A stretch of 58,586 nt of DNA from an uncultured Flavobacteriales bacterium (GTDB taxonomy: Bacteria; Bacteroidota; Bacteroidia; Flavobacteriales_D; Sanyastnellaceae). A program made the translations under genes and the position numbers. Under the pieces are notes generated by a model. That model searched no databases. It saw nothing but the letters and a program-made list of their open reading frames with translations, and had not been told where the DNA came from. This document shows positions 5,093 to 46,231 of the stretch, one piece after another; position 1 is the stretch's first letter, and every line of letters starts with the position of its first letter. The stretch spans positions 1 to 58,586 of the forward strand of contig CAJQPF010000004.1 in the NCBI GenBank assembly GCA_905480095.1, in the 5' to 3' direction.

Positions 5093-5890
5093 CTAGCTGG
5101 CTTTATTGCCCATTGCATTGAGCATGTTGCCGTAAACTGTATTAAGAGACGCAAGATTTTCTGCAAGAGCAGCAATATGCTCTTTGTAAGCCTTTGTATC
5201 CTCTACACTATCGTTTAGTGTCTTCACCAATTCACCCATTCCTGAATAAAGTTCTTTATTTGCCTCTAGCTGTTGAAGCTGCATCTCATACATGGCATTC
5301 AATGATCCAAGGTTCGTGTTCATACGCTCCAAGTTCTGTCCAGCAGAATTCCCTGCTTCTTTAGTGCCAACGAGACCTGTCAATGACTCAGAAACACCTT
5401 CGTAGGTGTTGGCCATTTCATCAACTCTGTTTGATGCTTTTACAAGTGAATCGCTAAATTCCTGAGTTGCTCCCGCAGCATCTGCCATGCTACTCATCTT
5501 GCTTGCTTGGTCACCCAGATTTCTCATCCCATCTCCAAGATTTTTAAGCATTTTAGAATCAATTTCTGCTTCTTTTAAAAGCGAATCAAATTCCTCAACA
5601 GCAGTTGTTGCATTGTTTGTCTCATCATCTTCGTAACGCAGTTCAGGATGTACCAATGACCAGTCTGGTTCGCTATGTGCTGGCGGCTCTAGTGCTGAAA
5701 AGAAGAAAATCAAGGCCTCAGTACTCAGACCGATGATAAGCATTTCACTCGCAAAAGGCATGTGCTCAATTTTAAACAGGGCACCTATAATAACAATGGC
5801 AGCACCAAAGCCATATAGTTTAGACATAAATTCTTTAAACTTTTTGCCACCGGGCATCCATGGATGTATTCTTTTGCTTGCGGGTATCAT
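5093..5890 (-). CDS. gldL: GldL, type IX secretion inner-membrane motor protein
   Basis: A 265-residue inner-membrane protein. Two transmembrane helices lie at about residues 26-75; the second carries an intramembrane acidic residue (STEALIFFFSALEPP) of the kind implicated in proton use by the GldLM motor. The rest is a cytoplasmic, coiled-coil-rich tail ending near residue 265. It is placed between gldK and gldM as in all T9SS operons and is tightly coupled to gldM (2 bp). An 88-bp gap separates it from gldK and shows no clear promoter. Confidence 0.95.
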   Translation of the reverse strand: MIPASKRIHPWMPGGKKFKEFMSKLYGFGAAIVIIGALFKIEHMPFASEMLIIGLSTEALIFFFSALEPPAHSEPDWSLVHPELRYEDDETNNATTAVEEFDSLLKEAEIDSKMLKNLGDGMRNLGDQASKMSSMADAAGATQEFSDSLVKASNRVDEMANTYEGVSESLTGLVGTKEAGNSAGQNLERMNTNLGSLNAMYEMQLQQLEANKELYSGMGELVKTLNDSVEDTKAYKEHIAALAENLASLNTVYGNMLNAMGNKAS

Positions 5891-29773: not shown

Positions 29774-32287
29774 ATGAAGAAAGTACTTAATCAAGTTGTA
29801 CCCCACGCGATTGCTGTTGTTCTGCTTTTTTTGATTTCAGCGGCTTTTTATTCTCCCGCTTTCATGAAGGGCGAGCGAATGAAACAGGGAGATATTGAGA
29901 AGTTTAGAGGCATGTCTCATGAGACCTTAAGCTATGAATCTGTTGAGGGTGAAAAACCATCATGGACAAACAGCATGTTTTCAGGGATGCCTACCATTCA
30001 AATTACGGGCTTGGGATTTACAACATTGCCTAAAGTTATTTGGCTCATTTTGAGATTTTTCATGTCTCCTGAACTCATGACATTGTTTATGGCGATGCTC
30101 GCAGGGTATGTTTTGGCGTTGTGTCTTAAAGCACCTCCTTGGATTGCGTTTATTGTCGGTGCAACGTTTGGGCTCTCTACGATAACGACACTTTACTTGG
30201 CTGCAGGACATGCTTCAAAGGTTCGTGCCATCGCTGTGATGCCTGGCGTCCTCGGGGGGGTTATTTGTGCATTTCGTGGCAAAAGGGCCGCTGGGGTTGC
30301 CGTTTTCACTTTGTTTCTCGCGCTACACCTGTATGCAAATCATCTTCAGATGACTTATTACCTGATATTTCTTGTCGGTGCAGTAGGTATTTATGAGTTG
30401 ATTTCGATCCTGCGAAAAGGCCAAACCAAATACGCTCTAATCACTTCATTGTTTCTTTTGATCGGTGCATTTTGTGCGGCGCTTCCTCAATCTTCAGACT
30501 TATATCTTACTCAGGAATACGCACATCATACCACCCGTGGAGAGGCAATATTAACGGACCCGAACACCGCGAATACATTGCTTGCCGAGGACGGACTTTC
30601 GGACCAGTATATTTTAGAATACAGCATGGCCCGAGGAGAGTGGATGTCTGTCATGGTGCCCAATATAAAAGGAGGTGCTGATCCATTATACTGGGGTGAA
30701 CAGAGATACAGTGGCGGTGCTTTTTATTTCGGAGCCATCGCATTTGCGCTGTGCCTGGCATTCTTTTTCGTCGGAAAAGATCGCATTAAGTGGCCGCTTC
30801 TTTTTGTCACTGTTCTGGCCATTCTTTTGTCATGGCGTGACACGTCTTTTGTGTCAGATTTTTTCATCAATCATTTCCCCCTGTTTAATAAATTTAGGGA
30901 TACGAAGATGATGCTCGTCATTGTTCAAGTTGCAGTGGCGACTGGCGCAACGCTTGCACTCAAAGAAATTTGGGAGGAAACGAATTCCAAGAATTGGAAG
31001 CCTTGGCTGTATTCGTTTGGAGGAATTGTGTTTGTCTTGGCGCTGTTTTATGCGCTCCCTTTGGTCTTTTTCGACTTTACGTCGAGCATCAGAAATGATC
31101 AAGCTGTTTTGCAATTGGGCAAATCAAGCGCGGTCGATTTGCGGATTGATATTTTTCGAGATGACATTCTAAGGACCATAGGGCTTCTTATTTTGTTCGT
31201 CGGTTTGATCATTGTAACACTCAAAAACATCCTCAACCGACATGCATCGATTGCGATTTTATCAGTGATCATGATTGCGGAAATAATCACAGTCAACAGT
31301 CGGTATTCGGTCAATTGGGTGCCTGCGTTTGAAGCCGATTACCCCTTTGAAGCCTCACCTCAAGATATGGCAATCTTGTCATCACAAACTGCGGATTTAA
31401 TTGGGTATGAAGATCTAAGAAAGTCTTACATTAAAATTGAAGAAGAGAAATTAGGCCACAAATTGACGCGCAGACATTCAAGGGCTGAATTGGCAGCGTC
31501 TTTTAGTGCGTTAAACGCGCTAAGCCATTACCGTGTTTTTGACTGGCAAAACCCATTTAATGATGCCAGGACCTCTTATTTCCACAAATCTGTAGGCGGT
31601 TATCACGGTGCAAAACTGCAGCGATATCAAGATTTTATTGACCGTGTTTTGCGACCGGAAATAGAAGACTTCAAGGCATTTGCAGAATCCTCAGGGATTG
31701 GATTGGCAACCACACGTCTCAAAGCTCTTGCCATGCTTAACACCCAGTATATGATTTTTCCCGGCGCTGAACAGCCCCTTCCTTTAGGAGGTGCACTTGG
31801 GCCCGCTTGGGTTGCAGATAATATTTTGTGGGTGGATGATGCTGAAACTGAAATTTCGGAAATAAGAAATGTAGACCTCGCCTCTACGGCAATCATTCAC
31901 ACAGACTTTTTATCGGAAACAGCTTCATTTGAGATTCCGGACAGTGATGTTTCATTGGATAACATGTCGAATGTTTCGCTTATACATTATCATCCTGATG
32001 GCTCTACTTATGAAGTAAATAGTGAGCATGACGGCATGTTCGTGTTAAGTGAAGTTTGGTATCCTGAAGGATGGAAAGCAACAGTCGATGGAATAGACGT
32101 TCCTCTTGTGAGGGCAAATTATATACTTCGTGCACTTCCAATATCGGCTGGGCGTCATACAGTTGAACTTCGTTTTGAACCTTCAGACAGAAAATTGGCA
32201 GGATTAGCGAGTGGGTTTGGGTCTTTTGTTTTATTGATATTTCTTTTCTCCATGACTTATATGGCAAGCCGTAAAAGTTTAGGGTAA
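29774..32287 (+). CDS. YfhO-family multi-pass membrane protein
   Basis: An 837-residue inner-membrane protein with about a dozen hydrophobic helices between residues 8 and 500, a large extracytoplasmic C-terminal region (about 510-800) and a final helix. It resembles the YfhO family, related to GT-C type glycosyltransferases; Bacillus YfhO glycosylates lipoteichoic acid, but a Bacteroidota substrate is not known. The C-terminal part (VLSEVWYPEGWKATVDG) is the typical YfhO soluble module. The stop codon overlaps the next ATG by 1 bp (TAATG). Confidence 0.88.
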   Translation: MKKVLNQVVPHAIAVVLLFLISAAFYSPAFMKGERMKQGDIEKFRGMSHETLSYESVEGEKPSWTNSMFSGMPTIQITGLGFTTLPKVIWLILRFFMSPELMTLFMAMLAGYVLALCLKAPPWIAFIVGATFGLSTITTLYLAAGHASKVRAIAVMPGVLGGVICAFRGKRAAGVAVFTLFLALHLYANHLQMTYYLIFLVGAVGIYELISILRKGQTKYALITSLFLLIGAFCAALPQSSDLYLTQEYAHHTTRGEAILTDPNTANTLLAEDGLSDQYILEYSMARGEWMSVMVPNIKGGADPLYWGEQRYSGGAFYFGAIAFALCLAFFFVGKDRIKWPLLFVTVLAILLSWRDTSFVSDFFINHFPLFNKFRDTKMMLVIVQVAVATGATLALKEIWEETNSKNWKPWLYSFGGIVFVLALFYALPLVFFDFTSSIRNDQAVLQLGKSSAVDLRIDIFRDDILRTIGLLILFVGLIIVTLKNILNRHASIAILSVIMIAEIITVNSRYSVNWVPAFEADYPFEASPQDMAILSSQTADLIGYEDLRKSYIKIEEEKLGHKLTRRHSRAELAASFSALNALSHYRVFDWQNPFNDARTSYFHKSVGGYHGAKLQRYQDFIDRVLRPEIEDFKAFAESSGIGLATTRLKALAMLNTQYMIFPGAEQPLPLGGALGPAWVADNILWVDDAETEISEIRNVDLASTAIIHTDFLSETASFEIPDSDVSLDNMSNVSLIHYHPDGSTYEVNSEHDGMFVLSEVWYPEGWKATVDGIDVPLVRANYILRALPISAGRHTVELRFEPSDRKLAGLASGFGSFVLLIFLFSMTYMASRKSLG

Positions 32288-33471
32288 TGAAGCTAATTCA
32301 CACAAGTTTGTCGAAGGGTTGGGACGATGACTTTTGGGGTAAATGGGACAGCTTTCAGGCAGAAAACCCAAGCGCATACCTTGACTCTAGGTCAGTAAAA
32401 GCAGCCTTAGATGTCCCGCAACGACAATTAAGAGCACTTTGTTGGGTGGATCACGCTCATCATATTTTAGGTATTGCTACCACAGAAGATACTTCAGCTG
32501 TCAGTCAATCAAAAGGTCAGTTTCTGAAAGCAGATAAACCTGTTTTCAAGCTTGCGCAGAGATATTTATATCGTGGAGATGGTAAGTTTAAACTAAATAT
32601 AAGGGTTTTAGGAATGGTGCTTTCCAGTGGAGATCATGCATTTAGATTCTCGGATCATTTGTCAAAAGAGGAAATACACAATGCCATTGACGAGGCGGTA
32701 TATCTTTGTCCATTGCCCAATTCAACCGTTCCACGGTCAATCCTTATTAAGGATCACTACAGTGAGCTTCCTTGGGGAGATCGGTTTGCTGGAAAATCAA
32801 GTTGGCATCCCAAATGGGTGGATCTTGAATTTGACCCTGTGATGGAGATTGATTTGAAGTCTGAATGGAAGTGTTTTGACGATTATAGCAATGCTTTACG
32901 AAAAAAATCCAGGACGAAAATAAGACGGATTTTTAAAAGTTCAGAAGAGTTGGTTCAAAGGGATTTATCTCTGAAGGAGGTGATTTCACTTTCTGATGAA
33001 TTGTACGGTTTATATTCAAAAGTATATGGAAGGGCAGGTTTTCAACTCGGGAAGCTGCACAAAGAGGATATCATTTCCCTGAAAGAACATTGGGGAGATG
33101 ACTTTCCTGTCATCGGTTATTATTTTGAAGGAACCCTTGTCGGATTTCAGTGCGGTATCGTGACCAATTATACTGTTGAAGCCTTTTTTGTTGGTTTTAA
33201 TGAAGATGAAAACAGAGTTCATTCTATTTATCAAAGAATGTTGCTTGAGTTTGTAAATCAAGGAATTGAGCGGGGCGCTAATAAAATTTCACTTGGCAGA
33301 ACGGCTTTGGATATTAAATCTTCATTGGGAGCCTGTCCCAGAAGATTGTCCTGTCACATGAGGGTCAACAGGCCCGCGATTCATTTTTTATTAAGTGTTA
33401 TAGCGGGCGCTTCCTCTCCGAAAATTCCACAACTTAAAAGAGCGTGGAAGGATGATGTTATTCAAACCTAA
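32287..33471 (+). CDS. GNAT/FemAB-like acyltransferase-fold protein
   Basis: A 394-residue soluble protein. The C-terminal half (residues ~190-350) has the layout of a GNAT/FemAB-type aminoacyl or acyl transferase: a basic RKKSRTKIRRIFKS helix, then IGYYFEGTLVGFQCGIV and VHSIYQRMLLEFVNQGIERG followed by ISLGRTALDIKSSLG. I do not recognise the N-terminal half. Translational coupling to the YfhO-type gene suggests a role in cell-envelope modification. Specific function is unknown. Confidence 0.6.
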   Translation: MKLIHTSLSKGWDDDFWGKWDSFQAENPSAYLDSRSVKAALDVPQRQLRALCWVDHAHHILGIATTEDTSAVSQSKGQFLKADKPVFKLAQRYLYRGDGKFKLNIRVLGMVLSSGDHAFRFSDHLSKEEIHNAIDEAVYLCPLPNSTVPRSILIKDHYSELPWGDRFAGKSSWHPKWVDLEFDPVMEIDLKSEWKCFDDYSNALRKKSRTKIRRIFKSSEELVQRDLSLKEVISLSDELYGLYSKVYGRAGFQLGKLHKEDIISLKEHWGDDFPVIGYYFEGTLVGFQCGIVTNYTVEAFFVGFNEDENRVHSIYQRMLLEFVNQGIERGANKISLGRTALDIKSSLGACPRRLSCHMRVNRPAIHFLLSVIAGASSPKIPQLKRAWKDDVIQT

Positions 33472-33505
33472 GCGATATTATATTCGCATTTTATACAGAA
33501 TTTAA

Positions 33506-34063
33506 ATGAACAATAAAGGAGCATTGGTATTGATTGGTGTTTGGCTTTCGGTACTTACATATGTACAACTTTCACCAGAGCCTGTTGTGATGTCAGACAA
33601 AGAGTCTGCTGTGATTGCTTATGTTCATGGTGACACCATTCAGCAAGGCATGTTGTTGATTCAAAGCTTGGAGGCAACCCTCAGAGAAAAAATGACAGAA
33701 GCTGAGTCCGTTTTGAAAGCACAAGCGCTCCCACTTCAAGAAGAGGCCCAAGAACTGATTAACTATGCAAATTCAGGACAGGCATCTGCTGATGAGATTG
33801 ATATTGCGAGTCGTAGGGTAGGCGAAATTGAAAGCCTATTGGAAAGGATGCAATACGACGCGGAACAAAGTTTTGCACTTCGTGAGAAAGCGATGCAGGA
33901 CACCATTGCCGAACATCTTACTGCAACACTCAAGACATTTTCTGAAGATCAAGGGATTGATTTGGTTTTAAATTGGGGTCTCAGTGGTGAAGGTGTTCTT
34001 TACGGGACAGATTCGCGTGATATCACCATTGAGGTTTTGGAAGCTTTAAACGACCCTAAATAA
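33506..34063 (+). CDS. OmpH/Skp-family periplasmic chaperone
   Basis: A 185-residue protein with an N-terminal signal/anchor (MNNKGALVLIGVWLSVLTYV), the opening beta strand VIAYVHGDTIQQGM typical of OmpH, and a long Glu/Ala/Gln-rich helical segment (residues ~50-140) that would form the Skp tentacles. It ends with DLVLNWGLSGEGVLYGTDSRDIT, the returning strand. Skp proteins carry unfolded outer-membrane proteins across the periplasm. It is 2 bp upstream of the DUF4924 gene. Confidence 0.88.
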   Translation: MNNKGALVLIGVWLSVLTYVQLSPEPVVMSDKESAVIAYVHGDTIQQGMLLIQSLEATLREKMTEAESVLKAQALPLQEEAQELINYANSGQASADEIDIASRRVGEIESLLERMQYDAEQSFALREKAMQDTIAEHLTATLKTFSEDQGIDLVLNWGLSGEGVLYGTDSRDITIEVLEALNDPK

Positions 34064-34065
34064 AT

Positions 34066-34602
34066 ATGATGATTCTCTCTGACACAAAAAAGAAGGAGCA
34101 TATTGTTGAGTATATTTTGTTTTTATGGCAAATTGAAGACCTGATTCGTGCCGCTAAATTCAATCCGGACATTCTTGAGGGATGGGCTGAGGAAACATCA
34201 ATGCGGGAGGATACAGATCCTGACAAAGAAAAAGAATGGATCGTCGGATTGGCTCAGTCTATGCGTCTAGAAGGCAAGGAGACGTCGGGTCACATCACCA
34301 AGGTGAGTGAGCCATTGGTGGAATTGGCGCACCTTCATGAAATGCTTCTCGGAACGGTTGAAGATTTAAGATATAAAGAAGCATTTGAGACAGCCAAGCC
34401 TTTCCTCAAAGAATTAAGTGTCAAGCAAAATGATGAAGCGGTTCATCCTGTTGAACAGTTGCTGATAGGCTTGTATGGTTGGTTGATATTAAGGATGAAA
34501 AAACAAGTCATTTCTCCTGAATCTGAAGCAGGATTTGTCGCTTTTAGAAACTGGGCAAATGCGCTTGCAAGGGGGCATATTAAAGTTTATTACGACGCAT
34601 AA
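34066..34602 (+). CDS. DUF4924 family protein
   Basis: A 178-residue all-helical cytoplasmic protein whose N-terminal KKEHIVEYILFLWQIEDLIR pattern fits the Bacteroidota DUF4924 family. No catalytic motif, signal or membrane helix is apparent and the function is unknown. It follows the OmpH/Skp gene by 2 bp and is the end of that transcript, with 82 bp before the next gene. Confidence 0.75.
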   Translation: MMILSDTKKKEHIVEYILFLWQIEDLIRAAKFNPDILEGWAEETSMREDTDPDKEKEWIVGLAQSMRLEGKETSGHITKVSEPLVELAHLHEMLLGTVEDLRYKEAFETAKPFLKELSVKQNDEAVHPVEQLLIGLYGWLILRMKKQVISPESEAGFVAFRNWANALARGHIKVYYDA

Positions 34603-34684: not shown

Positions 34685-35773
34685 ATGCTACCTACCTCTC
34701 CTCTTCACAATATTCAGTTATGGAAAGCTGAGGTGATTGACCCCTCATCTGAAGAAGGGTTGATACGTTTTGCAACATTAAAATCGAAAGGACTTATTCA
34801 TTCAGAGATCGACACTTTAGAAAGTCAGGTGGTAGAATTGGCCATCATTCGAAATCCATCTCTTAAAGACAACCCCTTAGGTCTTACAAATGCTATAAGC
34901 GCAATCATTGGCAATAAGAACTGGGACACATATGGCCGATGGGTTGTGTACCCATGGAACGGTTGTGCTGTAAGGTTGCTTCCACCTTCGTCGTTTATCG
35001 AAGTAAGAACAAATCGCAACCGAGATAGAATTACAAAGCAAGAACAGGAGATTCTGAGTCATAAAACAGTAGGAATAGTTGGACTTTCTGTAGGTCATTC
35101 TGCTGCGGTAACGATTGCAATGGAAAGATCAGCAGGGACAATTAGAATTGCCGACTTTGATGATCTAGAACTTTCAAATTTAAATCGGATTAGAGCAGGT
35201 GTTTTTGAATTGGGTCTTCCCAAATGGCTTATTGCGGCGCGTACAATTTCAGAAACTGATCCATATGTAAATGTGGAGGTTTTTCCAGATGGCGTTCAAG
35301 AGGACAACATTGACAGTTTTATGAATCAATGCGACGTTGTCATTGATGCCTGTGATGGACTTGCTGCAAAGGCGATGATTCGAATTGAAGCATTAAAAAG
35401 GAAGATACCTGTCATCATGGATACAAGCGACAGAGGGATGCTTGATATAGAGAGATATGACATTCTTGAGTTTACAGATGGTTTTCTTCATGGTCGCATT
35501 GATTCAGAAATGATGACTTCACTTAGAAAAAGATCTCACTGGGATACAGAAACATTAAATTTATTTATTGACTTCTCAACCGCTTCTGAACGCGGCCAAA
35601 TGAGTTTGGCTAAGATGGGAACTGAACTTGTCGGTTGGCCCCAATTATATTCTGATGTCGCTTCAGGTAGTGCTTTTGCAGCTGAGGCTGCGCGCAGACT
35701 GCTGCTTGGAGAAGATATACCTGATTCACGATTATACCTTGAAATAGATGAGCAGCTCTCTGTCAAGAACTAG
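34685..35773 (+). CDS. ThiF/E1-like adenylating enzyme homologue (Rv1355c-like, no nitroreductase domain)
   Basis: A 362-residue protein with a ~125-residue N-terminal region followed by a ThiF/MoeB/HesA-type Rossmann domain: nucleotide loop VGIVGLSVGHSAA, then RIADFDDLELSNLNRIRAGV (the DFDxxxxSNLNR adenylation signature) and CDVVIDACDG. Such enzymes adenylate a carboxylate, often the C terminus of a ubiquitin-like or small peptide partner. There is no zinc-binding CxxC pair, and the position after the Rossmann core reads MDTSDRGML, with no obvious catalytic cysteine. The sequence recalls the mycobacterial Rv1355c family minus its nitroreductase half. It overlaps the next gene by 26 bp and begins a kinase-containing operon. 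Confidence 0.8.
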   Translation: MLPTSPLHNIQLWKAEVIDPSSEEGLIRFATLKSKGLIHSEIDTLESQVVELAIIRNPSLKDNPLGLTNAISAIIGNKNWDTYGRWVVYPWNGCAVRLLPPSSFIEVRTNRNRDRITKQEQEILSHKTVGIVGLSVGHSAAVTIAMERSAGTIRIADFDDLELSNLNRIRAGVFELGLPKWLIAARTISETDPYVNVEVFPDGVQEDNIDSFMNQCDVVIDACDGLAAKAMIRIEALKRKIPVIMDTSDRGMLDIERYDILEFTDGFLHGRIDSEMMTSLRKRSHWDTETLNLFIDFSTASERGQMSLAKMGTELVGWPQLYSDVASGSAFAAEAARRLLLGEDIPDSRLYLEIDEQLSVKN

Positions 35774-36494
35774 CGCGGAAAAGCTAAAGCTCGCAAAAAG
35801 TGTGAGTGAAGTACACTTACGGGTGCTAAGGTCTTCTGAAGACCTTGCCCTTTCACACAAGATGGTGGAAGGTCATAAGCGTGTTTTAAAAGCCTACGGC
35901 ATCAATAAAATATCGTCATTTAATTCTGATTGGATTGGTAGAGAAGATGTCATTCTCATCGCTGCAATGTCTGCGGATGGCGAGCGTGTGCTTGCAGGTA
36001 CGAGATTGCAGTCTGGCCCTGAACCTGAAGGTTTCCCGCTCTATAAAGCAGTAGGAGAGATGGATGAAAACATTTCGCCTTGGTTAAAGTCAATTATTCC
36101 AGAAGGAACCATTGAACTAAATGGCATGTGGAATTCAATTGAATTGGCTGGGATGGGATTGGGTGTTGAGTGGATGGTTCAGTCTGCGATGGCCTCTATG
36201 TCGATGTTGGATTTAAGAAATCTTCTTGCGCTAACATCACCTGTAACAAGGAAAATGAGAGACAGAATGGGTTGGCAAATTCATGATGAGTTTGGCGATG
36301 ACGGATATTTTAAATATCCTACTGAAAAATTGAGAGCAAGCATTGAGCATTTTATTTTCCCTGACGATATCCCCAAATCTGTCCCAGAGGTAAAGGTATT
36401 TATGGAAGGCATTTGGGAAGCTCCTATCGGACACGTGATGCATTTTGAAGGTCCCAAAGGAAAACTGAAGGTCATTTTTAACTTTTCGATATGA
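35748..36494 (+). CDS. GNAT/autoinducer-synthase-like acyltransferase-fold protein
   Basis: A 248-residue soluble protein I cannot name with certainty. Its core has the order seen in GNAT-fold N-acyl synthases: strands VILIAAMS and RVLAGTRLQ, an IELNGMWNS strand-turn followed by ELAGMGLGVEWMVQSAMASM helix, DLRNLLALTSPVTRKMRDRMGW, then C-terminal strands. This resembles acyl-homoserine-lactone or N-acyl amino acid synthases (LuxI/FeeM type) more than standard acetyltransferases. The ATG at 35748 lies inside the E1-like gene; the stop overlaps the kinase start by 4 bp, so the three are likely translated together. Confidence 0.55.
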   Translation: MSSSLSRTSAEKLKLAKSVSEVHLRVLRSSEDLALSHKMVEGHKRVLKAYGINKISSFNSDWIGREDVILIAAMSADGERVLAGTRLQSGPEPEGFPLYKAVGEMDENISPWLKSIIPEGTIELNGMWNSIELAGMGLGVEWMVQSAMASMSMLDLRNLLALTSPVTRKMRDRMGWQIHDEFGDDGYFKYPTEKLRASIEHFIFPDDIPKSVPEVKVFMEGIWEAPIGHVMHFEGPKGKLKVIFNFSI

Positions 36495-38635
36495 TCAATT
36501 GTAAAGCCATTTTTAGGCTTTCGTTTTTATTATTTGTTGTGTCGTGTTTTTCTTTTCAGCCTTCTTCTTTTGCTCAGAAATATCTCGGTTCTCGACTCGA
36601 GATTTTATCTACTACTTCGCATAATGTAGATGTACAATCTCCTGTTGATTTGCTTCATGAGACCTGGGTGAGGTCGGATTTGGATGTCCCAAACTTGGGG
36701 AATTCAAGCAATTGGGTGTGGGCACGGTTGGATTTGGATCCTGTCATAGATGCTGGGCTTAGTGTTGAAATTGCTTACGCAACGATTGATTCACTTCAAG
36801 TCTTTATGGTATGTGATGGTGTTGTGAAATCGAAGCGTTCTGCAGGCGCGACTGTTCCCAGATCTTTTCGAGAACAACAATTGGGGAATTACCCATCCTT
36901 TCCTATCCCTGTTGAGGACTGTGAGAAACTCACCTGCTATATACGTGCTTGGAGTGGAAAGCAGATTTTATTGCCTGTACGTGTAGAGGGTACGCGTAAA
37001 CTTTTGACCGATGGTCATTATCGGGATGTGTTTTTTGCAATCTATTTCGGCGTCGTAATTTCCCTGCTTATTTATAATCTATTTCTTTACTTCAGTGTAA
37101 AGGACAACAATTATTTACAGTATGTTTTATTTATTATTGCTGTAGGGGGAACACAACTTGTGCTCAATGGATATGATCGGGTTTTTGAACTGATTACCTC
37201 TCCTTGGTTAGCGCTTAGAATCACGCATATTTTCGGAATTTTAAGTGGTGTGTTTTCTATCCTTTTTGTGAGGAATTTTTTACACTTAAAGACCAAAGCA
37301 CCCCTCTATTATAAAATTTTTGGCTGGTTATATATCCCTTATGTTTTTGCTTTATTGCTTTTAGTTTCAGGCTATTTTAATGCATCATATGATATGATTA
37401 ATGTATCAGCTTTGTCGATTGTTTTGCTTGTCCCCGTCTCAATTAAAGTCTGGAGGAGTGGGGATGAGTCGGCAGCATATTTTTTAGTGGGTTGGTTGGT
37501 TTTTATTACAGCTGTTACTGTATTTGTATTGAAAGATTTCGGATTAATCCCCTACAATGAAGCCACGCTTTATGCGCTTCCCATAGGAAGTGCCATAGAA
37601 TTGGTGGTCCTATCCTTGGCCCTAGGCTCTCGGATTAATCAACTTAAGAAGGACAGGCAAAAGGCAAAAGAAAAGGAGCTAAATACATCTCTATTGAATG
37701 AAAAGATCCAGAGAGAACAAAATATCGAACTGGAAAGGAGTGTGACTGAGAGAACCTCTGAGCTTACTGAAATGAACGATTCATTGGCAGAAACACTGGA
37801 GGATCTTAAATCTGCCCAACAGCAGTTAATTCAATCTGAGAAATTGGCTTCATTAGGACAGTTAACGGCAGGTATAGCACATGAATTAAATAACCCGATC
37901 AATTTTGTGACCTCAAGTGCACAATCTCTTAAAAGAGATTTCGCTGATCTAAAAGAAGTCATCGAAACGGTATCGGTTCTTCAACCCATGAGTGACAAAC
38001 TGTCTGATGAGCTGAAGGTTGTAATTCAAAGAATGAAGGATTTAGATATTGCATTCACACTCAAGGAAATTGATGAGCTTTTGGCTGGGGTAGTAGATGG
38101 TGCAGAAAGAACTGCTGAAATTGTAAGCGGTTTAAGAATCTTTTCCAGAATGGATGGAAATCAATCATCTGAGGCAAACATCAATGAATTGTTAACCTCT
38201 ACGCTGATCATTTTGAGGAGTAACCTGAAGGACGAGGCAGATGTCTTAACAGAGTTCTCCGAAAACCTTCCCAATATCAACTGTCAGCCTGGAAAATTAA
38301 ATCAGGTTTTCATGAATATTATTACGAATGCGGCTCAAGCGACTATGGAAACGCAGCTTATTCGTTCTGAACGAGAAGTTAGAGTGCGAACACGATTGGT
38401 AAATGATTCGGGCAAACAGTTTATTCAAGTTGACATAACCGACAATGGTGTGGGGATGTCAGAACAAAAAATATCACAAATATTTAATCCCTTCTTCACA
38501 ACGAAAGGAGTGGGGCAAGGAACTGGACTTGGGCTTAGTATTGTTAAGGGGATTCTTGACGATCACGATGCTACAATAGAAATTACATCTGAAATAGATA
38601 AAGGCACGACCTTTCTTCTTAGCTTCCCACTATGA
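36491..38635 (+). CDS. 7TMR-DISM sensor histidine kinase
   Basis: A 714-residue membrane kinase. Signal peptide (residues 1-28), then an extracytoplasmic 7TMR-DISMED2-like beta domain (about 30-180) suited to ligand binding, then seven hydrophobic helices (about 183-390), a coiled coil (395-450), and a kinase core. His464 lies in LTAGIAHELNNP; the ATPase domain shows NQVFMNIITNAAQA, DNGVGMS and GTGLGLSIVKG. It is a non-hybrid kinase with its own receiver encoded next, overlapping by 4 bp (ATGA). The ligand is unknown; the upstream E1-like and GNAT-like genes are candidates for producing it. Confidence 0.92.
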   Translation: MINCKAIFRLSFLLFVVSCFSFQPSSFAQKYLGSRLEILSTTSHNVDVQSPVDLLHETWVRSDLDVPNLGNSSNWVWARLDLDPVIDAGLSVEIAYATIDSLQVFMVCDGVVKSKRSAGATVPRSFREQQLGNYPSFPIPVEDCEKLTCYIRAWSGKQILLPVRVEGTRKLLTDGHYRDVFFAIYFGVVISLLIYNLFLYFSVKDNNYLQYVLFIIAVGGTQLVLNGYDRVFELITSPWLALRITHIFGILSGVFSILFVRNFLHLKTKAPLYYKIFGWLYIPYVFALLLLVSGYFNASYDMINVSALSIVLLVPVSIKVWRSGDESAAYFLVGWLVFITAVTVFVLKDFGLIPYNEATLYALPIGSAIELVVLSLALGSRINQLKKDRQKAKEKELNTSLLNEKIQREQNIELERSVTERTSELTEMNDSLAETLEDLKSAQQQLIQSEKLASLGQLTAGIAHELNNPINFVTSSAQSLKRDFADLKEVIETVSVLQPMSDKLSDELKVVIQRMKDLDIAFTLKEIDELLAGVVDGAERTAEIVSGLRIFSRMDGNQSSEANINELLTSTLIILRSNLKDEADVLTEFSENLPNINCQPGKLNQVFMNIITNAAQATMETQLIRSEREVRVRTRLVNDSGKQFIQVDITDNGVGMSEQKISQIFNPFFTTKGVGQGTGLGLSIVKGILDDHDATIEITSEIDKGTTFLLSFPL

Positions 38636-39174
38636 TAAATGTTTTATATATCGATGATGAGGAGCATAATCTAACTTCATTCAGAGCTGCCTTTCGCAGG
38701 GATTTTCAAGTTTTTGTAACAACTGAACCTTCTGAGGCTGTAAGGATATTGGTAGAAAATCCCATTGAAGTTGTGATATCAGACCAAAAAATGCCCACGC
38801 TCAGTGGCGTAGAGTTTTTTGAACTTATTATGCCAGATCACCCCAATCCGGTGCGTATGCTATTGACGGGACATGCGGACATAGATGCTGTTATAGATGC
38901 GATTAACAAAGGCCAGATATACAAGTATATCAGCAAGCCATGGAATGAAGCTGAGTTAAAACGTCTTGTCGAAGAAGCGAGTGAATTGTACCAATTCAGA
39001 ACTGCCCAAGATATGCAGGCTTCAGATTATAGTAAGAGATTGTATTCTGCTCAAGATAAACTTGAGTCCTTGATTTCAGAAATTAAATCCTCTAGCGATT
39101 TAACCGAAGAGAGTAAGGCAAGCTATATCGAAACGATCAACGGCGCAATCTCGCTTCTCCAGGTGCCCACATAA
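38632..39174 (+). CDS. Response regulator with receiver domain and helical tail
   Basis: A 180-residue response regulator. The receiver has acidic residues in YIDDEEHN, phosphorylation site Asp51 in VVISDQKMP, the Thr of LLTGHAD and Lys in YKYISKPW. The remaining ~60 residues are helical and charged with no DNA-binding or enzymatic output domain, so it may act through protein contacts. Receivers of this QKMP/TGHAD type are often paired with 7TMR-DISM kinases. It is translationally coupled to the kinase. Confidence 0.9.
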   Translation: MINVLYIDDEEHNLTSFRAAFRRDFQVFVTTEPSEAVRILVENPIEVVISDQKMPTLSGVEFFELIMPDHPNPVRMLLTGHADIDAVIDAINKGQIYKYISKPWNEAELKRLVEEASELYQFRTAQDMQASDYSKRLYSAQDKLESLISEIKSSSDLTEESKASYIETINGAISLLQVPT

Positions 39175-39244
39175 ATCGTTTTTATGCTCAATCGAGTTCA
39201 ATTGTCTTTAAGCGTTGTATCTTGTGCGCAAGATTTCATATCCC

Positions 39245-39631
39245 ATGCATGTAATTCTAATCGATGACAGTGAAATTGACAATGCAGTCAATAAGAAATT
39301 GCTCAAATTAGCTCGGATATCCGACGATATTGAGGTCTTTACTTCGCCCCGTGCATCTCTCCAACACATTAAAGAGTTGGGGATTACTTGGACATCTCCG
39401 AGACTCATTTTACTTGATTTATCTATGCCAGATATTGATGGGATGGAATGGCTTAAAATATTCAGAGCGCTCCCCGATCAAGTTCAAAATAAATGTTTAA
39501 TTTATGTCCTCAGCGCATCCATTGATCGCCAACAACTTGCTCTCGTAGATGCTGACCCTTCTGTGATCGCATTGCTTGAAAAGCCACTGGATGTATATCT
39601 ACTCCAGCAACTCATCAAACAAGAAGCTTAG
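39245..39631 (+). CDS. Single-domain response regulator (receiver only)
   Basis: A 128-residue stand-alone receiver: VILIDDSEIDN, phosphorylation site Asp58 in ILLDLSMPDIDG, Ser/Ala of VLSASID and EKPLD with the conserved Lys. The ATG at 39245 gives a canonical receiver start and is preferred over TTG at 39215. It is 70 bp downstream of the first response regulator; an ATCTTG-TGCG-CAAGAT inverted repeat (39219-39234) lies in the gap, so it may be differently expressed. It could be a CheY-like diffusible phospho-acceptor for the same kinase. Confidence 0.9.
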   Translation: MHVILIDDSEIDNAVNKKLLKLARISDDIEVFTSPRASLQHIKELGITWTSPRLILLDLSMPDIDGMEWLKIFRALPDQVQNKCLIYVLSASIDRQQLALVDADPSVIALLEKPLDVYLLQQLIKQEA

Positions 39632-39647: not shown

Positions 39648-40733
39648 TTAGAGGTATTTAAAATCTTCCCCAGTTTTTATTTTCAGTAGGGTTTCATAAA
39701 TAAGTTTGATACACCCTTCAATGTCATCTTTGTGAACCATCTCTACTGTTGTATGCATATATCTCAGAGGCAGGGATATCAGTGCACTTGGTACACCACA
39801 ATTCGAATATGCAAATGCATCCGTGTCTGTTCCAGTAGACCTTGAGGCCGCCATTCTTTGGAAGTCAATCTTGTTGTCTTTTGCTGTGTCAATAATGCGT
39901 TTCAATAGATTGTTTTGAACTGCGGGCCCGTAGGTAACAGCGGGTCCTTTACCTGCTGTAATGTCTCCTTGCTCAATCTTGTTGACCATGGGCGTTTGGG
40001 TACAATGGCACACATCTGTAACAATAGCGACATCGGGTTTGATGCGTTCAGCGATCATTTGTGCGCCCCGTAACCCGATCTCTTCTTGAACTGAATTGGT
40101 GATATATAAACCAAATGGCAACGTTACTTTGTTCTCTTTCAGCATTCTCGCCACCTCTGCAATCATGAAGCCACCCGCTCTGTTATCTAACGCTCGGCCT
40201 ACATACCAATTCTTATTCAAAACCATAAACTTGTCGGGATAGGTCACCACACATCCCACATGAATCCCCATCTTCTCAACCTCTTTTGCGTCTTTTGCGC
40301 CCACATCTAAAAAGATGTTTTTCACTTTTGGCGATTCTTCTTTTGCAGCGGTTCTTGTGTGTATTGCTGGCCAACCAAACAATCCTGTGACAGGACCTTT
40401 GTCTGTATGGATGATGACGCGCTTTGATGGAGCGATTTGATGGTCACTTCCTCCGTTTCTTCGCAAATAAATGAAGCCCTTAGGTGTAATGTAGTGAACA
40501 AACCAACTGATTTCATCAGCATGCGCTTCTATCACCACTTTGTATTTTGCCTTTGGATTAATGACCCCTACAGCGGTGCCATACGTATCAACAAAATGTT
40601 CGTCGATATACGGTTTTAAATAATTAAGCCACATTTTTTGACCTTCAGCTTCAAATCCTGTCGGTGAAGGGTTATTCAAATAAGACTCCAGAAATGCCTC
40701 AGACTTCTTAGTGATGATTTTATTTTTTGCCAT
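39648..40733 (-). CDS. M42 family metallopeptidase (glutamyl/deblocking aminopeptidase type)
   Basis: A 361-residue cytosolic M42 aminopeptidase; members form dodecameric shells that trim peptides. Metal and catalytic residues are visible: VIEAHADE (His), ALDNRAGG (bridging Asp), VQEEIGLRG (general-base Glu and ligand Glu), VTDVCHCTQ (Asp) and RYMHTTVEM (His). Substrate preference cannot be read from the sequence. It lies downstream of the beta-oxidation operon but beyond that operon's terminator. Confidence 0.93.
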   Translation of the reverse strand: MAKNKIITKKSEAFLESYLNNPSPTGFEAEGQKMWLNYLKPYIDEHFVDTYGTAVGVINPKAKYKVVIEAHADEISWFVHYITPKGFIYLRRNGGSDHQIAPSKRVIIHTDKGPVTGLFGWPAIHTRTAAKEESPKVKNIFLDVGAKDAKEVEKMGIHVGCVVTYPDKFMVLNKNWYVGRALDNRAGGFMIAEVARMLKENKVTLPFGLYITNSVQEEIGLRGAQMIAERIKPDVAIVTDVCHCTQTPMVNKIEQGDITAGKGPAVTYGPAVQNNLLKRIIDTAKDNKIDFQRMAASRSTGTDTDAFAYSNCGVPSALISLPLRYMHTTVEMVHKDDIEGCIKLIYETLLKIKTGEDFKYL

Positions 40734-40813
40734 GTGGTAAAATTATCATGGATTTCCTCCTTTGGTGACTTTTTTTTGAAACCTTATGCAACGTCTTTTG
40801 TTCCTATTTAGAC

Positions 40814-40856
40814 AAAAAAAATCGGACTGCAAAATCGTTAAATCTTCCAGTCCGAT
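40814..40856 (-). terminator. Intrinsic terminator of the beta-oxidation operon
   Basis: Perfect 9-bp inverted repeat ATCGGACTG (40821-40829) and CAGTCCGAT (40848-40856) with an 18-nt loop, followed on the minus strand by seven T (complement of A 40814-40820). It lies just after the acyl-CoA dehydrogenase stop and before the M42 gene, so it ends the marR-fad transcript. Confidence 0.88.
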
Positions 40857-40876
40857 GAAATAAGATGGTTTAAACC

Positions 40877-42670
40877 TTAAAAGCAGTACTCATTTTTTGC
40901 GATACAAGCATCTGCAACGCGACGTCTCGCCTCTTTACAATTGAATGGGTCCACTTTCGTAAAGCGCTTCATGCCAAGCATCATCATTTTAAGTTCGTCT
41001 CCTTCTGCAAAACCGTTCAGTGCTTCCTTGCCTGCGATATTAATCTTATCTGCGACACCGTAAACATATGTTTGCATCATATCAAGTTGTACAGCTGCCG
41101 CATCGTCTCCTTTGGCTTGATGAAGTTTCTGAACTCTCAGCACCAATGACTCAGCAGTGTATGCCCAATTCATCATGTCTGCAATATTCATGAGGATTTC
41201 TTGCTCTTTTGCAAGCGTCATCATCAATTTCTGAGCAGCTGATCCTGCGACCATTAAAATTGATTTCTTAAAATTCTTGATATAGAGATGATGACGGTCG
41301 AAGATGTCAGTGGGTGGAGGTCCAAATTCTGGAATCCCGGTCAATTCATTCGCCACTTCCATCGCTGGCCCCATTAAATCCATCTCACCTTTCATCGCTT
41401 TTTTCAAAATCATGTCAACAGTCAGCATCCTGTTAATTTCATTTGTCCCCTCAAAAATTCTATTTATTCTCGCATCTCGATACGCTCTTTCAACTTGCGT
41501 TTCTGCACTGTACCCCATCCCACCAAAAATCTGAACAGCTTCATCTACAACGTAGTCAGCAACTTCTGAGCAGACAACCTTCATCATGGCACATTCAGGA
41601 GCGAATGAGGCGATGCCTTTCAGTGTAGCTTGTCCGTGCTCAACACCACTTGCCTCCAAAGCTTGAATAGCGTCATCGATGTTTTGTGTTGCACGATATA
41701 CGGCTGTCTCTGCGGCGAATGTTTGAATCGTCATCTCTCCAATTTTATGGCGAATTGCACCATATTTTGCAATGGATCTCCCGAATTGCTCTCTTTCGTT
41801 TGCATACCGTATGGAATAATCGATCCCTTCTTTACACGCGCCAATCACAACCCCACCGAGCTTTATTCGCCCAATGTTTAAGATGTTAACTGCAATTTTA
41901 AAGCCCTTACCTCTCTCGTAAAGCAAGTTATCTACGGGCACCTTCACGTCATTGAAAAACACTTGTCTTGTACTCGACCCCTTGATTCCCATCTTCTTTT
42001 CTTCGGGATTCATCGTGATGCCTTCGTATTCTTTTTCTATAATAAACGCCGTCAGATTTTCATCATCGTCAATCTTTGCGAATACAATAAAAATATCAGC
42101 GAACCCAGCGTTCGTAATCCACATTTTTTGACCGTTAAGGATATAATGTGCACCGTCTTCACTCAATGTCGCTTTTGATTTGGCACTATTTGCATCTGAA
42201 CCAGAACTGGGCTCAGTGAGGCAATAACACCCTTTCAATTTCCCACTCGCAAGCCCTGGGATATATTTCTGTTTTTGGGCTTCATTCCCATAATAAAGAA
42301 TCGGAAGTGTAGCAATTCCAGTATGTGCACTGAAACTTACGGCAAATGAATGGCCTCCACCAACGCCTTCCGTAATCACCATTGTGCTCTTAAAATCCAT
42401 GCCCAAACCACCCAACGATTCAGGTATTGAGCTACTCAGTAGTCCCAATTCCCCAGATTCCTCAAGAAGCTTAGGCATAAGACCTTCTTCTTGATTGTCA
42501 ATCGGGTCAAGATTGGGCACAACTCTGGAATTAATAAAATCTATTGCCGTCTGTTTCATCATTAGATGCTCCTCGGTCCAATCTTCGGGTGTAAAGATTT
42601 CATCGCAACTCACGTCGCGAATGATAAATTCTCCTCCAGTTATAGCTTTGTTTTCTTTTAAGTCACTCAT
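40877..42670 (-). CDS. Acyl-CoA dehydrogenase
   Basis: A 597-residue flavoprotein catalysing the first step of beta-oxidation. It has the FAD/substrate motif CYCLTEPSSGSDA, MWITNAGFADIFIVF, the C-terminal helical domain with FGGMGYS, and the catalytic-base region RIFEGTNEINRM. It is ~200 residues longer than typical medium-chain enzymes; the extra C-terminal helical region is like that of very-long-chain-type dehydrogenases. It is the last gene of the marR-fadB-thiolase-dehydrogenase operon, 6 bp after the thiolase gene. Confidence 0.95.
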   Translation of the reverse strand: MSDLKENKAITGGEFIIRDVSCDEIFTPEDWTEEHLMMKQTAIDFINSRVVPNLDPIDNQEEGLMPKLLEESGELGLLSSSIPESLGGLGMDFKSTMVITEGVGGGHSFAVSFSAHTGIATLPILYYGNEAQKQKYIPGLASGKLKGCYCLTEPSSGSDANSAKSKATLSEDGAHYILNGQKMWITNAGFADIFIVFAKIDDDENLTAFIIEKEYEGITMNPEEKKMGIKGSSTRQVFFNDVKVPVDNLLYERGKGFKIAVNILNIGRIKLGGVVIGACKEGIDYSIRYANEREQFGRSIAKYGAIRHKIGEMTIQTFAAETAVYRATQNIDDAIQALEASGVEHGQATLKGIASFAPECAMMKVVCSEVADYVVDEAVQIFGGMGYSAETQVERAYRDARINRIFEGTNEINRMLTVDMILKKAMKGEMDLMGPAMEVANELTGIPEFGPPPTDIFDRHHLYIKNFKKSILMVAGSAAQKLMMTLAKEQEILMNIADMMNWAYTAESLVLRVQKLHQAKGDDAAAVQLDMMQTYVYGVADKINIAGKEALNGFAEGDELKMMMLGMKRFTKVDPFNCKEARRRVADACIAKNEYCF

Positions 42671-42676
42671 GATAAT

Positions 42677-43855
42677 TTATTTAAGAAGTTCAAATACGCC
42701 AGCGGCTCCCTGACCGGTTCCGACACACATCGTTACAATTCCGTGTTTACCCTCTCTAAGCTTTAATTCATCTAACAGTTGAACGGTGAGTTTAGAACCG
42801 GTGCAACCGAGAGGATGCCCCAATGCAATCGCTCCTCCATTGACATTTACCTGAGCTGGATCAAGTCCCAATTCACGAGATACAGCAACACTTTGAGAAG
42901 CAAAAGCTTCATTTAATTCATACAAATCAATATCTCCAGACTTTAATCCTGCTCTCTCCAGTGCTTTGGGTACAGCATGAATGGGACCCATGCCCATCAC
43001 CCGAGGTTCAAGTCCGCTCACATGGTATGCCTTCAGTCTTGCGATAGGTTCTACATCTAACTCTTTAAGCATGCGCTCACTCACGACGAGAACGAATGCG
43101 GCACCGTCAGACGTTTGAGAACTGTTTCCTGCTGTGACTGATCCTCCCTGAGTAAATACAGCTCTAAGTTTTGCGAGCGCTTCGGGTGTAGTCCCTCTGC
43201 GAACGCCTTCGTCCGTATCTATGATTGTACTTCTGGTAGCGGGTCTTTCGTTCGTGTCTAAATATGTTTCGTCTACTGTGATCGGAGCAATGCCAGTTGC
43301 AAATCGACCTGCGTCAATCGCTGCTGCTGCCCGCATGTGGCTTTCCATAGCAAAAGCGTCTTGGTCTTCTCGACTGATGTTGTAATCATTCGCCACAGCT
43401 TCTGCAGTGAGCCCCATACCCCAATACCATTCTGGGTTGTTCTTGGCCACTTTTGCATTTGGCACCAATCTCCATCCTCCAAATGGAATCGGGGACATTG
43501 TCTCAATTCCACCTGCAATAATGCAGTCTGACATCCCCGCATGAATTTTTGCAGAAGCGATTGCGATCGATTCTAATCCAGAAGCGCAGTATCTGTTCAC
43601 AGTCATTCCAGGAACTTTCTCGGTATCCAGTCCCATAAGTGACACCATCCGACCGATATTCAGTCCTTGCTCAGCTTCTGGCGTTGCATTTCCAACAATA
43701 ACATCATCTATTCTCTCCTTGTCAAGTTGAGGGAAATCTGACATGAGTTTACGAATCACTTGTTCTCCGAGATCGTCTGGTCTCATAAAACGAAACACGC
43801 CTCTGCCTGATCTTCCTACAGGAGATCGATACCCTCCAATTATATATGCGTCCAT
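42677..43855 (-). CDS. Acetyl-CoA acyltransferase (3-ketoacyl-CoA thiolase)
   Basis: A 392-residue thiolase that cleaves 3-ketoacyl-CoA with CoA. The active-site Cys lies in NRYCASGLESIAIA, the His in GGAIALGHPLGCTGSK, and the second Cys in CVGTGQGAAG. It is the FadA partner of the multifunctional enzyme encoded 6 bp upstream, with which it probably forms the trifunctional complex. Confidence 0.95.
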   Translation of the reverse strand: MDAYIIGGYRSPVGRSGRGVFRFMRPDDLGEQVIRKLMSDFPQLDKERIDDVIVGNATPEAEQGLNIGRMVSLMGLDTEKVPGMTVNRYCASGLESIAIASAKIHAGMSDCIIAGGIETMSPIPFGGWRLVPNAKVAKNNPEWYWGMGLTAEAVANDYNISREDQDAFAMESHMRAAAAIDAGRFATGIAPITVDETYLDTNERPATRSTIIDTDEGVRRGTTPEALAKLRAVFTQGGSVTAGNSSQTSDGAAFVLVVSERMLKELDVEPIARLKAYHVSGLEPRVMGMGPIHAVPKALERAGLKSGDIDLYELNEAFASQSVAVSRELGLDPAQVNVNGGAIALGHPLGCTGSKLTVQLLDELKLREGKHGIVTMCVGTGQGAAGVFELLK

Positions 43856-43861
43856 GATATT

Positions 43862-46231
43862 TTAGTTACGTAGTATTTTACCTTTTTGAATAAGCGACTG
43901 CATTCGTTCTAGCGTTTTGCGTTCAGTACATAGCTCTACAAATGCCCTGCGCTCAAGACCCAATAGGTATTGCTCGCTGACTTCTTGCTTTGCCGTCAAA
44001 TCGCCTCCACACATCACCCTTCCCAGTTTTTCACTGATCAGTTTGTCGTGTTCAGAGATGTACTTTCCCACTGCCATTGCATTTGCTCCTGCATACACGA
44101 TTCCCATGCCTTCCGCACCTAAAACTGTAATGTCTTTGCGTTCGATGGGTCTTGTGTAGCCAGAATCAGCCATTTGAATAGCCGCAGCCTTTGACCTAGA
44201 AACAAGGTCTCTGCGATTGACACAAACCTCGTCCACACCTTCAACCAGGTAACCAAGTTCAAATGCCTCGTATGCTGATGTTGCCACTTTTGCTTGTCCT
44301 ATCGTCAGAAAACTTTCTCTCATTGCATTAATACGTATATCTCCTTCCTTTAAGGAATCTGACAATCGCAATACAAATTCTTTTGTGCCTCCACCTGCAG
44401 GGATGACGCCTATACCAAACTCGACAAGGCCCATATATGTTTCAGCGTGTGCGATGACTTTATCTGCATGAAGACAAAGTTCACATCCGCCACCCAAAGC
44501 CATGTTGTGAGGTGCCGCAATAACGGGGACCCCCGAGTAACGCATTCTCATCATTGTGTCCTGGAAGTATTTAACAGCGGCATCAAGTTCCTCCCATTCC
44601 TGTTCAACTGCAAGCATGAAAATCATCCCCACATTCGCTCCTGCACTGAAATTTGCACCGTTGTTACTCACGACCAATCCACGGTATCCTTCTTCAGCCA
44701 GATCGATGGCTTTGTTTAAACCCTGTAGGACTTCCGCGCCTATGGAATTCATCTTTGTATGGAATTCAATATTGAGGATCCCATCGCCGATGTCCTTAAT
44801 GGTTGTCCCACTGTTGGACCAAACCACATTGTCAACATACTCAAGGTTGATTCTCCCTTCTTGACCAGGAATGACTTTATACGTCTTACTTGTCGGGTCG
44901 TAACATTCTCTCACACCACCTGTCACTCTATAAAAAGTATCATGACCTGCTTCAAGCATGTCATTCACCCAACCCGCAACGTGATGACCACGTTCTTTCG
45001 CAATTTCTGAAGCCGCTTGAATGCCAATTGCATCCCAACTTTCGAAAGCGCCTAATTCCCATGCAAATCCGGCTCTTAGGGCATCATCAATTCGGTAAAT
45101 TTCATCACTTATCTCAGGAATCCTGTAACTCACATATGAGAATACATCGGTGAATATTCTTCGATAGAAATCTCCCGCTTCGTCTGTTCCGTTAAAAAGC
45201 AACTTTGTGCGATCCTTTAAATCGTCCACTTGTTTTGCCGCTTCCAGTGTGGCATATTTTACTTTTTCCTTTTCTCTATATTCTAAAGTCTTAAGGTCAA
45301 GGACCAGTATTTTGCGTTTGCCTTTGTCGTCTTTAGATTTTTTATAAAATCCTTGTCCAGATTTACTTCCAAGCCAATTGTTGTCCACCAAATGCTGAAC
45401 ATATTTTGGGATCGCAAAGGATTCAGACCGTTCGTCATTTGGACAATTTGTAGCGACTCCATTTGCAACATGCACAAGCGTGTCAAGACCTACAACATCA
45501 CATGTTCGAAATGTCGCACTCTTAGGCCTTCCCATCGCTGGCCCTGTAAGTTTGTCAACTTTGTCAACAGAAAGCCCCATGTCTTCTACAGTATGAAAGA
45601 GTGCTTGAATTGCAAAAACGCCAACTCTGTTTGCAATAAATGCAGGCGTGTCTTTGCAAAGTACTGACTGCTTTCCGAGGATGCTTTCACCATATCCCAT
45701 GAAAAAGTCAATGACCCTCTGCTCAGTTTTAGGTCCAGGGATAATTTCAAGGAGTTGAAGATATCTCGGGGGGTTGAAAAAGTGTGTGCCACAGAAATGC
45801 TTTTGAAAATCTTCGGAGCGTCCTTCACTTAATTGAGAAATAGGGATTCCACTGGTGTTCGATGAAATCAGTGTTCCAGGCTTGCGAAACGCTTCTACCC
45901 GTTCAAACAGTTGTTGTTTGATATCCAACCTTTCTACGATGACCTCAATAATCCAGTCGCAACTAGAAATTTTTTCTAAATCATCGTCAAAATTTCCACA
46001 TTCGATGCGATTCGCAAATCGCTTTGAGTAGAGTGGGGCAGGCTTTGATTTCAGAGATGCTTTTAATGCGCCTTCTGCAGGAGCGTTTCTTGGCCCCTCT
46101 TTTGATGGAAGGTCGAGAAGCAATACCTCAGACCCTGTTTGGGCCAGATGGCAAGCTATGGCAGATCCCATAACTCCAGACCCCAAAACCGCTACTTTGC
46201 GAATCTCGTGCGTTTTAATAGGTGTATTCAT
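43862..46231 (-). CDS. 3-hydroxyacyl-CoA dehydrogenase / enoyl-CoA hydratase fusion
   Basis: A 789-residue bifunctional beta-oxidation enzyme. The N-terminal dehydrogenase has the NAD motif VAVLGSGVMGSAIA and the FVANRVG-type C-terminal domain (FIANRVGVFA). The hydratase/isomerase domain is at the C terminus (about residues 480-700), with oxyanion-hole segments GANFSAGANVG and ALGGGCELCLHAD, and the catalytic Glu region YMGLVEFGIGVIPAGGG. The domain order is opposite to E. coli FadB (hydratase first). It overlaps the marR stop codon by 4 bp. Confidence 0.94.
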   Translation of the reverse strand: MNTPIKTHEIRKVAVLGSGVMGSAIACHLAQTGSEVLLLDLPSKEGPRNAPAEGALKASLKSKPAPLYSKRFANRIECGNFDDDLEKISSCDWIIEVIVERLDIKQQLFERVEAFRKPGTLISSNTSGIPISQLSEGRSEDFQKHFCGTHFFNPPRYLQLLEIIPGPKTEQRVIDFFMGYGESILGKQSVLCKDTPAFIANRVGVFAIQALFHTVEDMGLSVDKVDKLTGPAMGRPKSATFRTCDVVGLDTLVHVANGVATNCPNDERSESFAIPKYVQHLVDNNWLGSKSGQGFYKKSKDDKGKRKILVLDLKTLEYREKEKVKYATLEAAKQVDDLKDRTKLLFNGTDEAGDFYRRIFTDVFSYVSYRIPEISDEIYRIDDALRAGFAWELGAFESWDAIGIQAASEIAKERGHHVAGWVNDMLEAGHDTFYRVTGGVRECYDPTSKTYKVIPGQEGRINLEYVDNVVWSNSGTTIKDIGDGILNIEFHTKMNSIGAEVLQGLNKAIDLAEEGYRGLVVSNNGANFSAGANVGMIFMLAVEQEWEELDAAVKYFQDTMMRMRYSGVPVIAAPHNMALGGGCELCLHADKVIAHAETYMGLVEFGIGVIPAGGGTKEFVLRLSDSLKEGDIRINAMRESFLTIGQAKVATSAYEAFELGYLVEGVDEVCVNRRDLVSRSKAAAIQMADSGYTRPIERKDITVLGAEGMGIVYAGANAMAVGKYISEHDKLISEKLGRVMCGGDLTAKQEVSEQYLLGLERRAFVELCTERKTLERMQSLIQKGKILRN

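Follow-up and report, generated by a model that had tools for sequence, protein, structure and literature searches.

Why two enzymes of small-molecule chemistry should be translated together with a membrane receptor kinase is the question raised by a locus in a stretch of 58,586 nucleotides (here called the window, meaning the whole stretch that was analysed) from an uncultured Flavobacteriales bacterium of the family Sanyastnellaceae, whose genome is fragmented and 83.5% complete. An earlier reading made from the letters of the DNA (the sequence-only reading) had described four overlapping genes followed by a further receiver, and had proposed that the enzymes make, modify or degrade the signal read by the kinase. 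The ORF calls reproduce this layout at the same coordinates: four genes spanning 34685-39174 with overlaps of 26, 4 and 4 bp, and a gap of 70 bp between the first receiver and the ATG of the second. The features are:

34685..35773, + strand: ThiF/E1-like cyclase, a desaturase-less short form of the Rv1355c/TrzS family (362 aa; NF005901, invariant D224)
35748..36494, + strand: FeeM/LuxI-fold N-acyltransferase, predicted N-acyl amino acid synthase (248 aa; AlphaFold model with structural matches to FeeM, LasI, RpaI and BjaI)
36491..38635, + strand: RetS-like 7TMR-DISM sensor histidine kinase (714 aa; Pfam, sensor model, intact catalytic boxes)
38632..39174, + strand: receiver protein (180 aa; Response_reg 3.1e-18)
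39245..39631 from the ATG, with a TTG at 39215 also possible, + strand: second stand-alone receiver (Response_reg 3.4e-9)

The first of the overlaps joins the ThiF and acyltransferase genes in the adjacency that marks oxazolone loci. On the 5' side of the operon, positions 32287-34602 of the same strand code for a FemX-like GNAT (Acetyltransf_6), an OmpH/Skp-like protein and a DUF4924 protein; the OmpH-DUF4924 pair remains close by in many genera of the window's family, even with intervening genes. Convergent to the operon, at 39648-46231 of the minus strand, lie an M42-type aminopeptidase gene and a beta-oxidation cluster (acyl-CoA dehydrogenase, thiolase and hydroxyacyl-CoA dehydrogenase; named by eye), which could possibly represent an acyl-CoA link to the operon. 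In many relatives the operon is flanked by genes of the same sizes, coding for proteins of ~361 and ~597 aa.

The sole Pfam match of the first protein is to ThiF (PF00899, 6.9e-22), and in NCBIfam it matches the Rv1355c family (NF005901, 8e-109) over model positions 7-340 of 722, and, as it lacks the second half, it scores 365 bits and stays below the full-length cut-off of 476 bits. The label 'E1-like' given to it earlier is right for the superfamily, and the family match narrows it to the cyclase half of the Rv1355c/TrzS family. TrzS is known to carry out the ATP-dependent cyclisation of N-acyl tryptophan, an activity abolished in the D217A variant (PMC12856293). In the window protein D224, part of a C223-D224 motif, is one of 41 columns that are invariant between it and its homologues from Bacteroidia, Rhodococcus and Streptomyces. 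This aspartate is conserved throughout 28 aligned proteins, including the Rhodococcus Rv1355c protein, and matches, in alignment, the CTD-motif Asp of E. coli ThiF, the residue class mutated in TrzS D217A; the ECD motif is also present in a Mycolicibacterium homologue. E1/ubiquitin-like, CBASS-like and tRNA (TcdA) roles of the ThiF gene were considered and rejected, their matches all lying at the level of the superfamily. Membership of an E1-E2 defence system (Bil/CBASS-like) was likewise rejected, with weak E1 superfamily matches for this protein and none for its neighbours.

The window protein ends at residue 362, where the fused oxidase of its longer relatives would begin. No homologue of this flavin-dependent oxidase (nitroreductase) half was found in the window genome at its 83.5% completeness or in its genus, nor in any relative with a short ThiF protein, and a separate desaturase elsewhere in the window genome was rejected as a candidate, since none was found. 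By its sequence, the window ThiF protein would work like the cyclase half and not like full TrzS. The complete ThiF-FDO fusion is found in many relatives among the Bacteroidia. Of 395 genomes sampled across this class, 70 carry the ThiF marker. On the ThiF tree the fused oxidase undergoes 13 changes of state, at least 6 of them forced by strong branches, these counts being slightly high because L218 and L245, scored as 'short', are cut off by contig ends. As the actinobacterial outgroup has the fusion, its repeated loss is the simpler reading. On a Streptomyces plasmid (L264, 4128-7042) a ThiF-family protein overlaps the gene for a beta-ketoacyl-ACP synthase III, another acyl-handling partner.

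The second protein has no match of its own in Pfam or NCBIfam. A few relatives touch Acetyltransf_1 (2e-6), and the Pfam FeeM model (PF21926) touches 1 of 34 family members weakly (E 0.017) and the window protein not at all. Both phmmer and profile searches against PDB gave nothing useful, so that the assignment rests on a structural model; some matches to lectins were short and not credible. The AlphaFold model, built from a 34-sequence alignment, has a pLDDT of 92.1, and its best solved match is FeeM (2g0b; Foldseek rank 1, 8e-8; VIA-align Z 16.3), with an rmsd of 3.0 over 182 residues and a difference in sequence that leaves 10% identity. The next matches are LasI, RpaI, BjaI and TofI, and for most other GNATs among the matches ~140-160 residues are aligned. 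The model therefore predicts a GNAT/FeeM fold. This agrees with the earlier description 'GNAT/autoinducer-synthase-like' in terms of structure; no autoinducer-synthase model appears among the Pfam and NCBIfam matches at E up to 1, and the likeness to LasI and BjaI is one of fold. No plasmid-borne copies of the acyltransferase were found. N-acyl amino acid synthases have reportedly been linked to PEP-CTERM/exosortase systems (by Craig et al. in 2011).

TyzA of the tyrazolone pathway has likewise been likened to FeeM and BjaI (PMC10404671). Given a FeeM/AHL-synthase fold, as in TyzA, beside an Rv1355c-family ThiF protein, the pair is predicted to be the acyltransferase and cyclase of oxazolone biosynthesis. 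The same combination is found in TrzA/TrzS (Rv1356c/Rv1355c), which make tryptazolone in Mycobacterium and Rhodococcus with a ThiF cyclase of the same family beside an N-acyltransferase; unlike the window protein, this cyclase has the FDO desaturase, and no histidine kinase is reported beside trzAS (PMC12856293). In the tyrazolone pathway of M. tuberculosis (TyzA/TyzB/TyzC) a FeeM/BjaI-fold acyltransferase is again paired with a ThiF cyclase, here the stand-alone TyzB as in the window, whereas the desaturase is present and no receptor kinase is reported (PMC10404671). OxzA/OxzB of Pseudoalteromonas rubra, as far as they are described in that same source, comprise the same acyltransferase-ThiF pair with a desaturase and without mention of a receptor kinase (PMC10404671). 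Hence the statement that no described system has this set of genes holds for the whole set in the PMC open-licence literature, and has to be given up for the enzyme pair, which is described as TyzA/B, TrzA/S and OxzA/B. In addition, genes for c-di-GMP metabolism adjoin trzAS, and the authors of that study suggest signalling from these genes and from structural analogy (PMC12856293). A GGDEF gene also lies near a plasmid copy of the Rv1355c-family ThiF gene in Rhodococcus, and no 7TM kinase is seen beside the ThiF gene in the few plasmid records read from outside Bacteroidota.

The third gene codes for a receptor that earlier was called a 7TMR-DISM histidine kinase, a name upheld by its Pfam domains (7TMR-DISM_7TM, 4.9e-41; DISMED2, 3.2e-13; HisKA; HATPase_c). 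It has a RetS-like periplasmic domain, seven TM helices and an intact histidine kinase, with all boxes preserved (HELNNP at 464, NIITNA, DNGVG, FNPFFT and GTGLG). In a model of the sensor (pLDDT 92), the periplasmic DISMED2 domain, at about residues 34-166, adopts a RetS-like fold, matching RetS (3jyb) with Z 15.5 over 135 residues. In these features it resembles the RetS/LadS/SagS-type 7TMR-DISM sensors of Pseudomonas, with their RetS-fold periplasmic domain, 7TM bundle and histidine kinase; no report of such sensors in operons with signal-type synthases was found in the PMC open-licence literature. On a tree with paralogues the operon kinases are not resolved as one clade, a result compatible with one origin, and 8 of 11 other 7TM receptors fall in a clade of their own (support 100/100). 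At the most divergent locus (L107, from G053), the receptor slot following a full ThiF-oxidase and a divergent acyltransferase is occupied by a different membrane protein (4902-5612), which has several hydrophobic segments and a linker INYAQRIQQAILP, and runs off the contig. We take this linker to resemble those of SpoIIE-type phosphatases; if the protein is confirmed, the receptor slot can take another type of receptor.

Both receivers retain the phosphoacceptor Asp and the Lys (D51/K102 in the first, D58/K113 in the second). In most relatives the gene after the kinase codes for a fusion of receiver and second histidine kinase (~360 aa), followed by a stand-alone receiver, and the long homologues of the first receiver have the architecture Rec-HisKA-HATPase; the 180-aa receiver of the window is a shortened remnant of that receiver-histidine kinase. 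In families other than the window's, a single divergent receiver gene (~155-165 aa) usually lies just upstream of the enzymes and is a conserved part of the system there. An example is the divergently transcribed single receiver gene at L236 (7243-7707, minus strand), with similar cases in many families. The outputs vary among relatives and include Rec-PAS-histidine kinase and Rec-PAS proteins and one LuxR-type regulator (L239), the sole one among the outputs examined; the window locus encodes no DNA-binding domain.

The sequence-only reading had staked its proposal on the enzymes keeping company with the kinase in related genomes. A first set comprised 29 regions drawn from two families, one of them the window's, and all regions examined have the ThiF, GNAT and kinase genes in one and the same order (in L040 the acyltransferase was missed by the ORF picker and found by another search, and L054 is truncated within the ThiF protein). 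Across Bacteroidia we gathered loci by the acyltransferase or ThiF model, never by the kinase, and counted those where the two enzymes are present and the downstream sequence extends for 1.5 kb or more, which gave 101 loci from 21 families and 55 genera. A 7TM kinase lies directly downstream of the enzyme pair in 98/101 loci, 20/21 families and 53/55 genera, the loci being related by descent and therefore not amounting to 98 independent events. The gap between enzymes and kinase has a median of -4 bp, i.e. a 4-bp overlap, and is below 30 bp in 78 of the 98. The loci without a 7TM kinase in the next position are L193 (a gap, then a large Rec-PAS-HK protein), L223 and L249. The acyltransferase-first order was scored in seven loci, in five of which both genes are whole (L102-L104, L106 and L182) and the kinase still comes next. 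ThiF loci that are devoid of the acyltransferase (L203, L211, L232 and L252) are also devoid of the kinase and have unrelated neighbours, and, except at contig ends (L123, L125 and L126), relatives without the enzymes also lack an operon-type kinase; L229 is the converse case, with ThiF and a 7TM kinase and no acyltransferase detected.

The linkage is nearly universal and thus did not refute the proposal of the sequence-only reading. The same gene order recurs more often than by chance, and the synthase and receptor genes are linked and co-inherited. The kinase coupling persists through repeated changes in desaturase content, and its survival through these losses, swaps of gene order and shifts in output speaks for selection acting on the combination. 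In a partial-distance test, co-variation of acyltransferase and sensor beyond shared history was not significant, either for the 7TM portion (GNAT-7TM partial r 0.13, p 0.10) or for the periplasmic domain (p 0.28).

Taken together, we favor, with a probability of about one half (0.52), a self-contained locus for making and sensing a molecule, in which the kinase reads the acyl amino acid or oxazolone product of the enzymes encoded beside it. By analogy with the homologous enzymes, which provide good support for this class of chemistry, the GNAT-fold enzyme would draw on acyl-CoA or acyl-ACP to attach a fatty acyl group to an amino acid at its amine. With ATP, the ThiF enzyme would then adenylate the carboxylate of this N-acyl amino acid, leading to ring closure to an oxazolone (azlactone). 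The earlier suggestion that the two enzymes activate and acylate a carboxylate came close and, by homology, had the order reversed, N-acylation preceding adenylation and cyclisation in the known pathways (PMC12856293, PMC10404671). In most relatives the fused flavin-dependent oxidase would next desaturate the ring; the window lineage has lost this domain, and its product should therefore be a saturated oxazolone or the ring-opened derivative thereof. The product or a breakdown product would reach the periplasm or neighbouring cells and be read by the RetS-like domain, the 7TM bundle or both, upon which the kinase would hand phosphate to the receiver proteins. The linkage makes both the sensing of the product and this direction of information flow plausible. 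In mycobacteria the oxazolones are found mostly in cell pellets versus supernatants, unlike a typical diffusible signal, while the supernatant is where the acyl-amino acid intermediates build up (PMC12856293). The oxazolone and the ring-opened acyl amino acid are therefore equally good candidates for the ligand. Against product sensing count the lack of an exporter in the operon, of a DNA-binding regulator in the window locus and of significant co-variation between acyltransferase and sensor.

The linkage by itself fits product sensing and control of production equally. The strongest competitor, which we regard as rather unlikely, is that the kinase senses another cue, such as envelope stress, a nutrient or a competitor's molecule, and uses its relay to turn the enzymes on or off, the acyl-oxazolone being a membrane lipid, a redox-stress lipid or an antimicrobial and not the ligand. 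7TMR-DISM kinases respond to diverse cues, and the 98/101 loci accommodate this explanation just as well. Moreover, known N-acyl tyrosines are antimicrobial, and sub-inhibitory antibiotics induce oxazolone production in Proteobacteria (PMC12856293). Yet the window locus has no DNA-binding output, the LuxR-type regulator of L239 being the one case among the outputs examined, translational coupling joins the enzymes to the kinase itself, and an association of kinase and enzymes over ~20 families exceeds what simple regulation usually gives. Far less probable is that an amino acid or N-acyl compound from outside is acylated and cyclised by the enzymes, as a means of silencing or altering a foreign signal detected by the kinase. 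Such interception would be consistent with the general coupling of enzymes and receptor, but the homologous enzymes are biosynthetic, starting from primary amino acids and acyl-CoA (PMC10404671, PMC12856293), and the locus gives no hint of uptake; the suggestion that the enzymes modify or degrade the signal found no specific support. Most improbable is a role of the ThiF protein in activating a ubiquitin-like or sulfur-carrier protein as an E1-type enzyme, or in acting on tRNA as TcdA does, with the kinase linkage being incidental. Its superfamily, its weak PADLOC E1-E2 matches (best 1.9e-10) and its PDB sequence matches to TcdA (2e-9) and ThiF would allow such a role, but the Rv1355c family match is ~90 orders stronger, the near-universal partner is an N-acyltransferase, and no E2, JAB, ubiquitin-like or sulfur-carrier gene occurs in the neighbourhoods examined.

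A locus that makes and senses its own product has a comparable layout in the alpha-hydroxyketone systems LqsA/LqsS of Legionella and CqsA/CqsS, where an autoinducer synthase gene is said to lie near genes for a sensor histidine kinase and a receiver; the synthases reportedly use unrelated PLP-enzyme chemistry, and LqsS and CqsS are said to be of a different sensor type from the window kinase. No described oxazolone synthase-receptor system was found in the PMC open-licence literature. The enzyme chemistry (Oxz, Tyz, Trz) and the receptor (7TMR-DISM) are each already known, and it is their combination that was not found described. More tentatively, with odds somewhat below even, we propose that the locus represents an undescribed, class-wide system of cell-cell or self-signalling in Bacteroidia, with an acyl-oxazolone or N-acyl amino acid as the autoinducer of the RetS-like 7TM kinase and with gain and loss of the desaturase diversifying its chemistry. 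Such a system, if true, would be the oxazolone counterpart of AHL signalling.

The authors of the Trz study regard the physiological role of the mycobacterial oxazolones as a major unresolved question (PMC12856293). With a receptor kinase tied to the oxazolone enzyme pair in ~20 families of Bacteroidia, there is now a concrete role to test and a candidate receptor, and a make-and-sense locus would give the acyl-oxazolone lipids the biological role that is still missing. To our knowledge, few small-molecule autoinducer systems of their own are established in Bacteroidota; with the ThiF marker in 70/395 sampled genomes, this would, if true, be a widespread autoinducer locus of the Bacteroidia.
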